40,632 nt of DNA, taken from a virus. The notes below the pieces were generated by a model. That model was not told the DNA's origin. It made no database searches and worked only from the letters and a program-made list of their open reading frames with translations. This document shows, piece by piece, positions 2,737-27,936 of the stretch. The stretch covers positions 1 through 40,632 of IMG/VR virus record IMGVR_UViG_3300023179_000226. One strand, written 5' to 3'. Position numbers and translations under genes: made by a program. The stretch's first letter is position 1, and each line of letters opens with the position of its first letter.

Positions 2737-2985
2737 TTAGTTAAATACAGAACTGCCTTGCGCTGCAAAAGCAACCGCAACCATACGTCGGGAAGGTGTA
2801 CCCAAACGATAAGCAGTCTTACCGTTCTTGGCAGTGTTGCTATAGATAGCATGGCCTTGGGAGCGTAGCTCGGAAATTCGAGCTGAAATAGTACCTTCTG
2901 TGGTCTTGAACAGACCAGCCAGTTGCCCGGCAGTGAATTGACGGCCTGATTTCAGGGTTTTTAGAACACTAGTTTGAATTGACAT
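2737..2985 (-). CDS. Small winged-helix DNA-binding protein
   Basis: 82 residues from the ATG at 2985, chosen because GAGGAAA lies six bases upstream; an in-frame ATG at 2997 has no such site. Residues 1-50 (LKTLKSGRQFTAGQLAGLF, then TTEGTISARISELRSQG) form a helix-turn-helix with the TxxxISARIxEL recognition helix seen in winged-helix regulators, and the following YSN...AYRLG fits the wing. It probably binds DNA as a small regulator. Terminators flank it on both sides (2693-2718 and 3013-3047), so it is probably a monocistronic message; no convincing promoter was seen in the short gap. Confidence 0.75.
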   Translation of the reverse strand: MSIQTSVLKTLKSGRQFTAGQLAGLFKTTEGTISARISELRSQGHAIYSNTAKNGKTAYRLGTPSRRMVAVAFAAQGSSVFN

Positions 2986-3012
2986 AAGTTTCCTCATGAT
3001 AAAGTCCCCGCC

Positions 3013-7194: not shown

Positions 7195-9705
7195 TCAACC
7201 AAACAAACCGTCCAGTGTAGCCGTCTCTTTTACCTTCCAACCTATACAATCTAACAGAGATGTTAAAGGTTCAAGAAATGACTTCTCAAACATAGTTTCA
7301 TAATCTACATACTCACGAAGTTTAAACTCTGGGGGTAGTTGACCGGAAAATGTAATGACATGAGTACCTAACGGGTTTGGTTCCTTCAAGTATATAAATT
7401 TTATCTTATCCCCTTCTTGTATCTTTTGATATTTTTTATTTAAATCCTTAGCATCGAGTAGATGGTTATAGATAAGTGCACCACGTACATGTATTGGTGT
7501 GCCTTTCCGAAAGATAGAATTAGGGTCACTGTACTCCTTTACCCCATTAACACCGCGAGGAAAGGCAATGTCCTCTGGCTCTAACATAGACCATTTCTTT
7601 TCGGTTTGTGATACATAATCCCTAAGTCTATCTTCATCTTCTCTTAAAGCAATACTTACTGCTTCTTTAAGTGCCTTTCTAACCGGTGCCGGGGTTGAGG
7701 ATCGTACGATTTCCATACCCAAAACTTTAAGCTTGGGTTCTTCGTAGCTAACTCCTTCAGAGTTATACACGTTAACAGCATACCTCTTCTTAGCAATCCA
7801 TACACCGCGGTCGGCAATGATTTCGCGCTTGAACTTAATCTTTTTCTGATAGGTATTGAGATACTCATTAAGCTGCTCACAAGCAGCATTAATAGTTGGT
7901 TCAATCTTACCCATACAATAACGATCCAATGCCTCCACCACTTCAGTTTTAGATTGTCCGCGTAAATTTTTAGCAACATAACTACCAAGAGTAATATAGG
8001 TGGAATCAGTATCGCTATAAAAAGAATAGTCGACTCCATGGGTGTTACATTCCTCATTGATAAAATCGGTTAATCGTTTGGCTACTGTTCTGATAATAAG
8101 CTGACCGGTCATCGTGATACCTTCAGCTACTCTAATATCGTAGTATCTAAAATAAACATTACCCATTGCACCGTAAAGTGAGTTCATTAGAATTTTAGAA
8201 GACATTTGCCTGGAGTTTAAACTGGCAATTTCATTTAAATGTACTGGGTCTTTAGTCTCTTCATATTTACTTTGCGCCAATAGCATTTGTTTTTTAGCCT
8301 GTTGACGAACGTCAAAATAATATTCAATTAACTCTGGGAATATACCTTTTCTATCTTTTCGAAAACACTGACCGTTGGCGGTCATAGTAACATCTTCGTC
8401 GTGTAACTTGGTAGTATCAAATTCACGTTCAATTAATTTAACGATGCTCTTTTCATCATCCGGTAAATATTTTTGACCATTAATAAGAGTTTCCGGAGAC
8501 ATATTCCAGGTCATAATAATAGAAGGGTACAGGCTTGTGGCATCAAAGGATACTACCCATTCATATTGGGCTGGTTTAGGCTCTTTAACAAACGCACCCA
8601 TAATCTGACGATCGTTTAAAGGGTCTACATGAGGGGGATTATGTACAATAATATTTTTCTTATTAAGGTAACTGTATAAGATACAATCCCAGGTACGTAC
8701 TGACGAAAAGATATCGATGTAGTTACACTTGGCGTCATACGCCATAGTCATTATTAGATTAATGATACGCAGCTTATCTTCTAAACGATCAACCAGCACT
8801 ACATCATGAATATTATAATCTACAAATAATTCCCAGTCTTTAGTATAAAACTCTTTAAATGACGTATATTGATGCTTTACTTTTTCATCATTAAGTTCCT
8901 CTTTCGCCACAGTATCTAACTTATAGTTTTCAACCATCTTGTAAGAAAATTTTCTATATAGATCCATAAAATCTAATATAGATATGCCAATCCACTCATA
9001 TGCTAATTGTGTTCTACCTCTTGCAAATGGTACTTCATGTTGACGAATAACACCCCAGGGTGAACATTCCTCTAGAGCCTCACTACCTAATACTCGAATG
9101 ATTCTAGACGACAAATATGCAATGTCAAACAACTGGCTGTTCCACCCGGTAATAACATCTGGGTAGTCCTCTTTAAGATGGTTAATAAACTTTCGCAACA
9201 AATCCATCTCATCAATACACTGAACATATTCAACATGAGATTGTTTGGGTAGGTAAGGACAGGTACCGAACGTGGTGATTTGCTTGGTATGGAAGTCTTG
9301 TACGGTAATGAGAAGAACTTGTTCTTGAGCCGAGCGAGGATCGGGAAACCCGTAGTCAGTAGAAGTTTCAATATCGATAGTTACAATCTTAACATGTTTG
9401 ATATTAAAATCAATGGTGTCAGGAAAAACTTTATTGATGAACTGATAAACAAAATTATAGTTTCCGTAGATTGGAAAGTTGCTAACATCTTGATACTTTT
9501 TAATAAAATCTCTTGCCTCACTGATAGACAAGAATTTCATCTTTTCAAGATTTTCACCCCAGAGTGATTTATATGGAGTTTGCTTACCGGTGCGTACAAA
9601 CAAAGCCGGTTCAAACGGTATTTTTTGTTTGATTCGCTTACCATCCTTGATACCCCGGAAAAGTATATTGTTACCACGCACTACAACATGAGTATAAAAG
9701 AGCAT
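7195..9705 (-). CDS. 43: DNA polymerase, family B (T4 gp43 type)
   Basis: 836 residues (T4 gp43 has 898). Exonuclease motif I is DIETSTD (D111, E113), and Exo II includes GWNSQLFDIAYL. Polymerase motif A is FDATSLYPSIIMTWN, motif B is KILMNSLYGAMGN, and motif C is YSDTDSTYI. Proofreading and polymerase residues all appear intact. The tail ends ATLDGLFG, a short hydrophobic end that probably binds the gp45 clamp. It copies phage DNA with the clamp and loader encoded at 13.6-16.3 kb. A glycosyltransferase gene lies directly upstream, separated by one base. Confidence 0.96.
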   Translation of the reverse strand: MLFYTHVVVRGNNILFRGIKDGKRIKQKIPFEPALFVRTGKQTPYKSLWGENLEKMKFLSISEARDFIKKYQDVSNFPIYGNYNFVYQFINKVFPDTIDFNIKHVKIVTIDIETSTDYGFPDPRSAQEQVLLITVQDFHTKQITTFGTCPYLPKQSHVEYVQCIDEMDLLRKFINHLKEDYPDVITGWNSQLFDIAYLSSRIIRVLGSEALEECSPWGVIRQHEVPFARGRTQLAYEWIGISILDFMDLYRKFSYKMVENYKLDTVAKEELNDEKVKHQYTSFKEFYTKDWELFVDYNIHDVVLVDRLEDKLRIINLIMTMAYDAKCNYIDIFSSVRTWDCILYSYLNKKNIIVHNPPHVDPLNDRQIMGAFVKEPKPAQYEWVVSFDATSLYPSIIMTWNMSPETLINGQKYLPDDEKSIVKLIEREFDTTKLHDEDVTMTANGQCFRKDRKGIFPELIEYYFDVRQQAKKQMLLAQSKYEETKDPVHLNEIASLNSRQMSSKILMNSLYGAMGNVYFRYYDIRVAEGITMTGQLIIRTVAKRLTDFINEECNTHGVDYSFYSDTDSTYITLGSYVAKNLRGQSKTEVVEALDRYCMGKIEPTINAACEQLNEYLNTYQKKIKFKREIIADRGVWIAKKRYAVNVYNSEGVSYEEPKLKVLGMEIVRSSTPAPVRKALKEAVSIALREDEDRLRDYVSQTEKKWSMLEPEDIAFPRGVNGVKEYSDPNSIFRKGTPIHVRGALIYNHLLDAKDLNKKYQKIQEGDKIKFIYLKEPNPLGTHVITFSGQLPPEFKLREYVDYETMFEKSFLEPLTSLLDCIGWKVKETATLDGLFG

Positions 9706-10446: not shown

Positions 10447-11055
10447 TTAATCCCACAGGCTTTGATAGTATTTACCAAAAAGACGATACCCATTAGCTTT
10501 TCTATCTTGGTGTGCGTCTAAACCTTCTCGGTCAATTTTTACTTTAGAAAACTGCTCGTTTAATTTAACACCTCGGTCTACTTCTGACCAATCAAAAAAA
10601 TGAGCATCATCATCATAATTAAGCGCTTGCTTAAATGCCCAGATCATTTCATCTAAAACCCAATCCCACCGTTTGAAATGATTTTCATCCACATCCCAAT
10701 CATTTTCTTTAGCAGGAGCAGCAGTTGAACGCAGCTCTTCTGGTACATCTTCATCATCTACCAGCGGTGCACCATGCTTTTCTTGTTTAAGCTGCTTAAG
10801 CATCGGTACAATAATATGCGCCAGGGTATGATCCATAGACCATGTATCCCAGTAATCGATCTTGACGTAATTAATTTTAGGGTGAACAAAATCAAGAAAC
10901 TTCTGTAAACCTACACAGAAAGGTGCTAAACGGTCGGACCATTTAACAATAAACGGGTCGTCATAATCGATTTCTTTTTTCCAAAAGAAAACTTTCTCCA
11001 GTATGGTGTATGGAGAAAGCCAGTGATTACGATATTTGTTAATGTATATTTTCAT
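10447..11055 (-). CDS. Conserved T4-like phage protein of unknown function (202 aa)
   Basis: 202 residues. Aromatic and acidic-rich, with HWLSPYTI, YWDTWSMDHTLAHIIVPMLK, VDDEDVPEELR and FKRWDWVLDEMIWAFKQAL. I recognise this as a protein common in T4-like marine phages, without a known function. The conserved Asp/His/Trp pattern suggests a folded enzyme or nucleotide-binding protein, but no catalytic signature can be named. The stop lies two bases from the glycosyltransferase start. The region upstream holds the tRNA cluster. Confidence 0.75.
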   Translation of the reverse strand: MKIYINKYRNHWLSPYTILEKVFFWKKEIDYDDPFIVKWSDRLAPFCVGLQKFLDFVHPKINYVKIDYWDTWSMDHTLAHIIVPMLKQLKQEKHGAPLVDDEDVPEELRSTAAPAKENDWDVDENHFKRWDWVLDEMIWAFKQALNYDDDAHFFDWSEVDRGVKLNEQFSKVKIDREGLDAHQDRKANGYRLFGKYYQSLWD

Positions 11056-11078: not shown

Positions 11079-11116
11079 TGGTGCCCCCTCTGTGAGTCGA
11101 ACACAGCACCACGTTA
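11079..11116 (-). tRNA. 3' part of an interrupted tRNA
   Basis: Leftward reading gives a T-arm CTGTG-TTCGACT-CACAG, then AGGGGGC, discriminator A and encoded CCA. These are the 3' acceptor strand and end of a tRNA. Directly upstream there is no 5' half; it is found at 11297-11337, and its GCCCCTT pairs with this AGGGGGC at all seven positions (one G-U). The complete tRNA at 11132-11205 lies between the parts. T-rich sequence follows the CCA, so the hairpin could also help termination. Confidence 0.6.
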
Positions 11117-11131
11117 GTTAAAGTTGTTTTA

Positions 11132-11205
11132 TGCGGCCACCTGGATTTGAACCAGGGACCCACCGGTTATGAGCCGGGCGCTGCTGACCTCTGAGCTATG
11201 ACCGC
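11132..11205 (-). tRNA. tRNA with anticodon CAT (Met or Ile2)
   Basis: 74 bases forming a cloverleaf: acceptor GCGGTCA/TGGCCGC, anticodon loop CTCATAA on a four- to five-pair stem, variable loop GGGTC, T-arm CCTGG-TTCAAAT-CCAGG, discriminator A. The D-stem has a C-C mismatch at its inner pair. CCA is not encoded. G1-C72 argues against initiator tRNA; elongator Met and lysidine-modified Ile2 cannot be told apart here. About 13 further flanking base pairs (GGTTGTTTT with AAAACAACTT) extend the acceptor stem. Confidence 0.92.
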
Positions 11206-11296
11206 ACAAAACAACCTTTTCGTATATCCGAAATTTCTTTTTTCTTGATTACTAATAATTTTTTGGGAAATTGGCTCCATTTATAAAAAACAAGTT

Positions 11297-11337
11297 TTTA
11301 GAGTCCGCTGCTCTAACCAAGCATGAGCTAAAGGGGC
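11297..11337 (-). tRNA. 5' part of an interrupted tRNA (anticodon loop reads CTA)
   Basis: Leftward reading gives GCCCCTT, TA, a D-stem GCTC/GAGC closing an 11-base loop with GG, then GCGGA and the loop CTCTAAA. With U33 fixed, the anticodon would be CTA, complementary to the UAG stop codon. No T-arm follows; instead comes T-rich DNA, the complete tRNA, and then the matching 3' part at 11079. The anticodon stem can form only about three pairs with the 3' part, so the gene may be dead, or spliced at a junction I cannot place. Confidence 0.6.
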
Positions 11338-11338
11338 G

Positions 11339-11662
11339 TTATCGCACACATGTGCGAACTTCGTTACGATACGAATTGGTAGCCGGGTCAAAGACCTGCA
11401 CTAAACACTGATAGTATTCTGGTTGTGTTACAGGTGGCGCAACATAAACTGGTGCTGATTGATAGGCATGAGCATTTGCAATAGCTGCACCAAGTATGAT
11501 ACCACCAAGTGCCGGGGCTATCCAGTGATTGCCGTGATGATGATAGTGATAATGCATGGGCTGAGGTGCGTAGCGATGACCGTAGCCGTATCGGTAACCA
11601 TGGGCATAAGCAGTACTGGTTATACCTAGAGACAGTACCAGAGCGATAGCAATTTTTTTCAT
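11339..11662 (-). CDS. Secreted His-rich protein, probably host-derived
   Basis: 107 residues from the ATG at 11662 (GGAG six bases upstream; an in-frame TTG lies two codons further). MKKIAIALVLSLGITSTAYA is a clear Sec signal peptide with an AxA-type cleavage site. The mature part is rich in His, Tyr and Gly (YRYGYGHRY, MHYHYHHHGNHW), then a hydrophobic Ala/Gly stretch (APALGGIILGAAIANAHA), and a C-terminus with two cysteines (YYQCLVQV, RTCVR). It resembles bacterial periplasmic proteins more than phage proteins. It has its own sigma70-type promoter at 11687-11715. Metal binding or envelope modification is possible. Confidence 0.75.
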   Translation of the reverse strand: MKKIAIALVLSLGITSTAYAHGYRYGYGHRYAPQPMHYHYHHHGNHWIAPALGGIILGAAIANAHAYQSAPVYVAPPVTQPEYYQCLVQVFDPATNSYRNEVRTCVR

Positions 11663-11686
11663 ACTCAACTCCTTATTGATGTTGGT

Positions 11687-26200: not shown

Positions 26201-26285
26201 TGGTACCCAGGACCGGACTCGAACCGGTACGCTGTTAAGCGAGAGATTTTAAGTCTCTTGTGTCTACCTATTCCACCACCAGGGT
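26201..26285 (-). tRNA. tRNA-Leu (anticodon TAA)
   Basis: 85 bases with a long variable arm (CGCTTAACAGCG), as in leucine tRNAs. Acceptor ACCCTGG/CCTGGGT has one T-T mismatch; anticodon loop CTTAAAA gives TAA (reads UUA); T-arm ACCGG-TTCGAGT-CCGGT; discriminator A and CCA encoded. UUA is a frequent Leu codon in AT-rich phage genes. It lies between two glycan genes in the same direction. Confidence 0.95.
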
Positions 26286-26292
26286 GTGTAAT

Positions 26293-27936
26293 TTAATTTA
26301 AGCTGGGATTTTTTACTAAAATATTATCATTAACAAAATATACATAATCTAATTTACTTCTATTTAACGTCTCTAATGCATCTTTTTTGGTTTGTACTAA
26401 AGGTTCCCCGGCGAGATTAAAACTAGTGTTTAAAAGCATAGGGCATTGTGTAATTTTAAAGAATAAAGTAAGTAATTGAAACAAAAATCCTTTGGAAACT
26501 GTTTGAACTCTACATGTACCGTCCACATGAATTATACCTGGGGCAATAGTTTTAGTAATTTGTAAACTATCAAAATTTAAAGTCATAAACTCACTACTTA
26601 AAAGACCTAAAGTTTCAAAATAATTTTTAAATTCTGACTCTAGTATAACACCAGCAAAGGGTCTGTACCATTCCCTTTTTTTAATTTCATTTACTAACTG
26701 TTTAGTATTTGAGTTTCGCGGATCAAATAAAATAGACCTATGCCCCAATGCCCTCGGCCCAGATTCTGGATGACCGTCAAAAATAGCTACACTTTTTTGA
26801 TTAATTAAAAGGTTACAAACTTCTTCGATACTTGAACTACTCCCCTGCTCTATACTCTCCCTGCTATCATAATAGTGATAAAATATATCATCAAAAAAAT
26901 ATACTGAGGGGGAAACGTTTAACTGTTTATTTTTAAGAATACAAGCCCCTATAGATGTACCGGTATCGTCTGAAACAGGCTCAAAATAAAACTGTAAGTC
27001 TGGGCAATTTTTTATATAAAAACTATTAGCTACTACGTTTAACCCATAACCACCAACAATACAAACCTTGTTAAGCCCTGTTTGATTAGTAAATTTTTTA
27101 ATTAAACGAAGCGCTTCTTTTTGTGTCTCTAACTGAACATGTTTTGCTTTGTCAGCATAAAATTTATAATTATCTTCTGTAACGTCAGCAATCTTATCTT
27201 CATCACCAAAGAAACAACTGGTTTCATTATTGTTCTTTAAATGTGAAAATAATTCACCTATTACATATCCGTTTTTAAAAATAGGCTCAAATTCGGTTTT
27301 TTCACTATAAGCTGACAGACCCATAGTCTTACCATTTTCTAACGGGCCTTGATTAATTAGTGTAGTAGCTGCTTCATATACTTTAACAATACTAAGTCTA
27401 TTACCTACATTTAAATGTACACCCGGGTAGAATTTTTCTAAGTCCTTGCTTAATGAATACCTGTCCTTCTCATTAAATGTCCAAAACGATTTGTATATTT
27501 CTTTTTGCTCCCTTCCCCTACAATAAAAAACAGATTCAGACTCTCTACATGTTGCTGTGTTATTTAAAAAAATTAAGGACCCGTCTCTATCTATAACAAA
27601 AACTAGCGCCTCATCAAATTTACTATTATTAAAAGCTAATGCTGCATGTAATGAGTGATGATTATGGGATGCATAGTTTTCCAACGGTATTTTAAATTTC
27701 TTTTCAATATAAACTTTGTAACCGTTTTCCAAGTTAGATATATTGGAAGGTGTAGTATACAAAAACCTGTCTATTTTACCGAAATTCAACGAATGATATA
27801 AGTCTAGCGCTAGGTAAGGATTTTTATCTCTTTTTTTCCTTGTAAGACGCTCTTCTTTTGCAAAGAATTCTAATTTACCGTTATTAATGGAACATACCGC
27901 AGCATCATGAGCAGTACTAAATGCCGCTATTCTCAT
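26293..27936 (-). CDS. Carbamoyltransferase (NodU/CmcH family)
   Basis: 547 residues, normal for the family. AAFSTAHDAAVCSINNGKLE with FFAKEERLTRKK begins the ASKHA-like ATP-using domain; SHNHHSLHAALAFNN supplies His ligands; VCIVGGYGLNVVANS, FEPVSDDTGTSIGA and ESGPRALGHRSILFDPR are typical of the C-terminal carbamoyl-transfer domain. It adds carbamoyl groups to a sugar hydroxyl, as in Nod factors and antibiotics. Found also in cyanophages. It overlaps the next upstream gene by 20 bases. Confidence 0.92.
   Translation of the reverse strand: MRIAAFSTAHDAAVCSINNGKLEFFAKEERLTRKKRDKNPYLALDLYHSLNFGKIDRFLYTTPSNISNLENGYKVYIEKKFKIPLENYASHNHHSLHAALAFNNSKFDEALVFVIDRDGSLIFLNNTATCRESESVFYCRGREQKEIYKSFWTFNEKDRYSLSKDLEKFYPGVHLNVGNRLSIVKVYEAATTLINQGPLENGKTMGLSAYSEKTEFEPIFKNGYVIGELFSHLKNNNETSCFFGDEDKIADVTEDNYKFYADKAKHVQLETQKEALRLIKKFTNQTGLNKVCIVGGYGLNVVANSFYIKNCPDLQFYFEPVSDDTGTSIGACILKNKQLNVSPSVYFFDDIFYHYYDSRESIEQGSSSSIEEVCNLLINQKSVAIFDGHPESGPRALGHRSILFDPRNSNTKQLVNEIKKREWYRPFAGVILESEFKNYFETLGLLSSEFMTLNFDSLQITKTIAPGIIHVDGTCRVQTVSKGFLFQLLTLFFKITQCPMLLNTSFNLAGEPLVQTKKDALETLNRSKLDYVYFVNDNILVKNPSLN

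Follow-up and report, generated by a model that had tools for sequence, protein, structure and literature searches.

Introns and inteins allow homing nucleases to enter important genes because they splice themselves out. In engineered home-and-rescue gene drives, the nuclease that destroys a wild-type gene is accompanied by a diverged but functional copy of it; the element considered here would differ from such drives in being natural and phage-borne, with a tRNA as the predicted rescued gene. The closest described phage systems are the free-standing homing endonuclease genes of T4-like phages, especially segB, which have in common with this element an intronless phage nuclease gene, an association with tRNAs, a late promoter and an RNA hairpin over the ribosome-binding site (PMC2988022, PMC13096335). 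SegB is, however, a GIY-YIG enzyme whose gene is listed between the tRNA-Arg and tRNA-Ile genes (PMC2988022, PMC13096335), whereas the element encodes a PD-(D/E)XK-like nuclease, lies within an anticodon loop and is fused to a complete replacement tRNA. I-Ssp6803I, from the group I intron of a cyanobacterial tRNA-fMet (Bonocora and Shub 2001, as cited in PMC3984707; placed among the PD-(D/E)XK enzymes by a reference in PMC3943268), offers a second likeness, namely a PD-(D/E)XK nuclease whose target is a CAU tRNA gene at its anticodon region; in that case self-splicing of the intron preserves tRNA function, whereas in our element no intron was found and a second tRNA apparently substitutes. According to one review, every phage group I intron known at the time lay in a protein gene, although phages have many tRNA genes (PMC3984707); an invader of the tRNA anticodon loop would therefore fill a gap. 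A literature search of open-licence papers returned no description of the arrangement.

The window analysed here is the whole 40,632-nt stretch of IMG/VR virus record IMGVR_UViG_3300023179_000226. Its contig is T4-like, as seen from neighbouring proteins with matches to the DNA polymerase and DnaB-like helicase families of phages and from regA-like DNA close by. Elsewhere in the window a second tRNA, a tRNA-Leu (TAA) at 26201-26285, directly adjoins a gene of the Nol-like carbamoyltransferase family (26293-27936). The feature under study occupies the minus strand from 11337 to 11079, where a tRNA 5' half is followed by a complete tRNA-CAT and then by a tRNA 3' half (Table 1). The likely reading, in our view, is that a homing endonuclease element, of a kind that breaks the tRNA it targets and brings a replacement with it, has decayed here. 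With more reserve, we incline on balance to regard the element as a natural home-and-rescue system, in which a homing nuclease would destroy the phage's single tRNA-CAT (probably tRNA-Ile2) and a diverged cargo tRNA-CAT, which supplies the nuclease stop codon and sits in an extended covarying helix, would take the place of the target.

A sequence-only reading of the window had reported the nested arrangement, and that observation is real: a complete tRNA-CAT lies within a broken tRNA. The inner tRNA is the only one recognised by ARAGORN and Rfam between 11337 and 11079 (Rfam E 1e-9), the 13-pair stem described below it forms at 13 of 13 positions with two G-U pairs, and the outer acceptor strands, GCCCCTT and AGGGGGC, pair at seven of seven with one G-U. 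The limits given for the outer halves needed revision. The 5' half, D-arm included, is genuine but stops at 11301, which is C34 of the lost CAT anticodon, and not at 11297, the TAAA at 11300-11297 belonging to the insert; the 3' half has the T-arm and CCA attributed to it but begins only at about position 44 (11111), not at 11116, and the 3' strand of the anticodon stem is absent from it. The cause of the arrangement, overlooked in that reading, is seen directly 5' of the inner tRNA, where 77 bases are C-terminal codons of a nuclease gene whose TAG stop is U8-A9-G10 of the inner tRNA itself; gene and inner tRNA together make up a mobile element that is widespread.

Table 1. Features of the nested tRNA locus and its neighbours, in window coordinates.
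Feature	Coordinates	Strand	Basis or comparison
Outer tRNA 5' half, positions 1-34, GCCCCTTTAGCTCATGCTTGGTTAGAGCAGCGGACTC	11301..11337	-	Identical in L090; intact counterpart in L005
5' end of insert: remnant of hairpin leader, late-promoter-like TATAAAT at 11285-11279	11279..11300	-	Aligns to L090 leader CTTGTTTTTATAAATAACAAAAACAAGGAG
Nuclease-gene remnant: last 28 codons, KWSQFPKKLLVIKKKEISDIRKGCFVRS, and stop TAG	11196..11282	-	Alignment to 168-aa L090 ORF
Extended stem, 5' arm, AAGGTTGTTTTGT, doubling as codons of the nuclease C-terminus	11206..11218	-	Covariation, 23 sequences
Inner (cargo) tRNA-CAT, complete, without encoded CCA	11132..11205	-	ARAGORN; Rfam RF00005, 56.5 bits
Extended stem, 3' arm, ATAAAACAACTTT; first base is the discriminator base	11120..11132	-	Covariation, 23 sequences
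Outer tRNA 3' half, positions ~44-76: variable loop, T-arm, acceptor strand, CCA	11079..11111	-	Alignments
Small upstream ORF ending ..CVR*, marker of the syntenic site	11339..11668	-	Similar neighbour beside intact tRNA in L005, L006, L012
Downstream ORF, phrog_11543, marker of the syntenic site	10447..11055	-	Synteny

Three related loci (L005, L006 and L012; about 80% identity in the downstream protein) have an uninterrupted tRNA-CAT at the syntenic site, between a like upstream ORF end and the downstream gene, and the two halves in the window are therefore remnants of a single ancestral gene, with inserted DNA between them. L005 thus serves as the empty-site counterpart of the window, and one of the two explanations offered by the sequence-only reading, an insertion that broke the outer gene, is borne out by this intact ancestral tRNA and by the precise point of insertion. 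The full insertion is found in L090 and L087, in genomic surroundings unlike those of the window; L090 has the same two halves around it. In both, the 5' half runs to C34 and is followed by a leader and by an ORF (168 or 208 aa) whose TAG stop is positions 8-10 of the cargo tRNA; then come the complete tRNA-CAT, the extended stem's second arm and, last, the outer 3' half. The L090 leader upstream of the nuclease gene is late-promoter-like. Alignment of the window to L090 shows a deletion that spares only the beginning of the leader and the nuclease's final 28 codons; L003 has a larger deletion by the same alignment, the inner tRNA being intact in both. L083 and L092 have the same tRNA and stem without a full nuclease gene, with no recognised outer halves adjoining, so that in four cases the cargo tRNA has been retained despite decay of the nuclease. 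The window feature is almost certainly a decayed insertion of this nuclease-plus-tRNA family. Two other loci deserve mention. L093 has an intact tRNA (7850-7926), apparently in the place syntenic to the window's, with an acceptor like that of the window's outer tRNA and a body like that of the inner one, and by its sequence looks as if the two had recombined. In L097, a 368-kb contig, a tRNA-like stretch at about 2740-3000 has extra bases between its 5' and 3' halves upstream of a cargo-type nuclease, and is possibly another decayed insertion.

Viral contigs and named phages together yielded 93 loci, among them 71 distinct cores; these were picked by similarity to the L090 nuclease, and the frequencies that follow are therefore not unbiased for the family. 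A tRNA-CAT starts at or near the nuclease stop in 60 of the 71 distinct copies, and in 36 its first base lies nine bases ahead of the final base of the stop codon, which in 33 of those 36 is a TAG forming U8-A9-G10. A tRNA-CAT 5' half (at least 8 bits) lies upstream in 32/71 as compared to 1/326 control windows, and a 3' half downstream in 16/71 as compared to 3/326; an exact-pattern search for the outer 5' half had found no match. Where both halves are kept (14 loci), 97 of the 98 acceptor-strand positions of the outer tRNA are paired, whereas halves re-paired between loci give a mean of 75.3 pairs and 97 was reached in none of 100,000 permutations. A chance arrangement of halves is ruled out by this test together with the intact L005 tRNA and the L090 halves. 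The insert begins directly after C34, and TAAATA or TATAAAT occurs at most 45 nt from the junction in 28 of 29 cases (4.9% of control windows). In three of the four leaders examined, the promoter-like motif is part of a hairpin (z about -4) that adjoins or covers the ribosome-binding site, an arrangement known from I-TevI, segB and mobE (PMC2988022).

Filled and empty sites occur in named phages as well. The Acinetobacter phage Apostate has a 666-bp insertion at C34|A35, and its joined flanks match without gaps, at 98.2-98.5%, those of Stupor, Abraxas and Konradin, which have a tRNA-Ile gene there; DLP2 has the insertion and DLP1 lacks it, and PhaxI is filled where SFP10 and ST-W77 are empty at the matching site. 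The PhaxI outer 5' half is trimmed to about position 26 and its outer 3' end reduced to TCACCA, and a new complete tRNA-CAT follows the nuclease. Deletion of the element is an unlikely origin for the empty sites, since the tRNA in them is exactly restored. A free-standing homing endonuclease element is recognised by a nuclease gene present or absent at one site among close relatives, by the lack of a surrounding intron or intein (here by Rfam at eight loci, with the ORF filling the insert) and by a recognisable catalytic domain, and this family has all three; it likely moves by homing. It might instead be supposed that the nuclease gene and tRNAs are mere neighbours in a recombination-shuffled cluster, with no mobile unit, for phage tRNA clusters are frequently rearranged and recognisable halves are absent in some members. 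The junction after C34 nevertheless recurs precisely, sister phages about 98% identical differ by the presence or absence of the insertion, and the overlap of stop codon and tRNA is fixed, which makes such mere neighbourhood extremely improbable. Next to the target tRNA in Acinetobacter Lazarusvirus phages lies a tRNA with a CTA anticodon, annotated as tRNA-Pyl (L105, 1213-1287; L197, 252-326), a possible amber suppressor.

Alternatively, the outer tRNA might be functional, with the insert removed as an intron by self-splicing or a phage RNA ligase and the inner tRNA a by-product. The outer halves do retain acceptor, D-arm and T-arm, and a perfect tRNA would be regained in the clean-split members by linking C34 to A35. 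Against this, the 3' strand of the anticodon stem is gone in the window, L003, L090 and L087, so that these halves cannot join as a proper tRNA, and outer halves have decayed to varying degrees in many members. Moreover, the clean-split ORF reaches or nearly reaches the 3' exon, and in full-length relatives a nuclease frame that nearly fills the insert leaves no room for a ribozyme core. Rfam returned no group I or group II intron at its gathering thresholds in the window and eight family loci, and no group I intron within E 5 in the window stretch; weak matches, among them RAGATH-7 with 21 bits (cut-off 112), were taken as chance. The other explanation of the sequence-only reading, a tRNA nested in a tRNA intron, is thus not upheld, and removal of the insert as an intron seems highly improbable. 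A group I intron was rejected on the missing core and the improper exon joining, and an archaeal-type tRNA intron or split tRNA was rejected because the window halves together form no complete anticodon stem.

The stem below the cargo tRNA was assessed by a column-wise covariation test rather than by pairing across loci; cargo leaders and trailers of different loci also pair highly in the stem subtype, because the sequences are alike. Of the cells given by 23 sequences and the 13 extra pairs, 95.7% are paired, as compared to at most 54.5% for slid arms, and there are 14 double changes in four pairs, a number of such cells reached in 0 of 500 shuffles. The 5' arm consists of nuclease codons, yet the non-coding 3' arm co-varies with it, which suggests that the pairing itself is kept. 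Cargo tRNAs of the stem subtype have no CCA, and their ends are buried in a helix of 20 bp that may hinder RNase P. As a guess, the extended helix could decide whether nuclease mRNA or mature tRNA results, because a cut by RNase P at the 5' end of the tRNA would remove the nuclease stop.

In gene content, the cargo replaces the target. A pattern search of whole records, which can miss unusual tRNAs such as one low-scoring candidate in CkP1, found a single CAT tRNA, the cargo, in each of PhaxI, cp19 and Kuja (matches outside tRNAs aside), one, the resident, in SFP10, one in Stupor, the empty sister, and none in Apostate and AsFcp_1, which have the insert and no cargo. Clean insertions without cargo occur in these last two, in CkP1 and probably in L124. 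The resident target is probably a lysidine-type tRNA-Ile2; in an early comparison each tRNA-encoding T4-like genome had a CAU tRNA with isoleucine signature, which was thought important (PMC1524935). Cargo-tRNA distances follow those of the nuclease (Mantel r 0.25, p 0.004; with 60 loci r 0.27, p 0.0005) and outer-half distances do not (r -0.06, p 0.67), which argues that the cargo is part of the moving unit and the outer half part of the target, the correlations being modest. The no-cargo forms group together in the nuclease tree (two changes), and the stem subtype requires about ten changes and was thus acquired or lost on several occasions. The D-arm motif GAGC[AG] is present in 25/31 outer halves, 17/27 other CAT tRNAs and 5/60 cargo tRNAs, a contrast only suggestive of cargo tRNAs recoded to escape cutting, since the outer halves came from an ordinary-tRNA profile and the sequences are related.

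These data bear on whether the element might home without any rescue, the cargo being a hitch-hiker or a homology arm for transfer. Such a role would suit the abundance of tRNAs in phage tRNA clusters, the modest cargo-nuclease correlation, the lack of CCA in stem-subtype cargo and the no-cargo clade, which persists and tolerates tRNA loss, so that rescue is not needed everywhere. It would leave unaccounted for the cargo anticodon, CAT as in the usual target in 60/71 copies, the cargo being the sole CAT tRNA of PhaxI, cp19 and Kuja in the pattern search, and the survival of cargo beyond the nuclease in the window, L003, L083 and L092. We regard homing without rescue as unlikely, and the best reading of the gene-content data is that the cargo would rescue the broken tRNA.

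The architecture, the exact insertion point, the empty sites, the conservation, the covariation and the cargo's replacement of the target in gene content are all seen in the sequences; from them we infer DNA cleavage, homing and cargo tRNA function, and the home-and-rescue reading would combine these as follows. The element comprises a PD-(D/E)XK nuclease gene, a short leader before it, in which a late-promoter-like motif occurs together with a hairpin over the ribosome-binding site, and a fused cargo tRNA-CAT after it; it is set exactly after C34 in the anticodon loop of the resident phage tRNA-CAT. In co-infecting phages, tRNA-CAT genes without an interruption would be cut at the anticodon by the nuclease, repair of the break would copy the element in and destroy the target tRNA, and the cargo would take over, so that, as we propose, the carrier bears no cost from the loss. 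A later deletion in the window removed the nuclease but spared the cargo, so that one tRNA now lies nested within a broken one. Where introns and inteins solve the problem of invading an important gene by splicing, this element seems to solve it differently, by bringing along a spare copy of the gene that it breaks. If this is true, home-and-rescue gene drives would have a natural counterpart, the odd split and nested tRNAs met in annotated phage genomes would be explained, and there would be one reason for the gain and swapping of tRNA genes by phages. The sister phages with and without the element make the hypothesis directly testable.

With regard to the nuclease itself, PHROG endonuclease families match the inserted ORF, which in named phages is annotated as hypothetical, endonuclease or endodeoxyribonuclease I. 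A profile built from 15 members and run against solved structures matched T7 endonuclease I (E 6.6e-5), so the nuclease domain is shared with the PD-(D/E)XK resolvases; the element differs in that most members add an N-terminal C2H2-like finger and in its insertion in tRNA genes. This match required the alignment profile, as a single nuclease query in phmmer gave no clear match (best E 0.0019, to a protein called probable uracil-DNA glycosylase). The residues E, PD and ExK are invariant across members (E..PD..ExK). An AlphaFold model (mean pLDDT 87.7, pTM 0.56) gave no Foldseek fold match at E <= 0.001, and the domain of the homing endonuclease I-Bth0305I ranked second, weakly (probability 0.99 but E 0.026, target TM 0.52). 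The protein is probably a free-standing homing endonuclease of the PD-(D/E)XK type. A host origin was considered and set aside, as a scan of bacterial and archaeal genome contigs with the nuclease alignment, using a narrow pattern, found no relative. Weak relatives occur in the very large Prevotella Lak phages (records MK250020-MK250028). Finally, in phage IME341 (L106, 1354-2062 of the locus) a no-cargo relative continues in frame into a tRNA-Arg (TCT), its TAA stop lying in the anticodon loop of that tRNA and a possible 5' half upstream; judging from this layout, the nuclease family may there have been retargeted to another tRNA.
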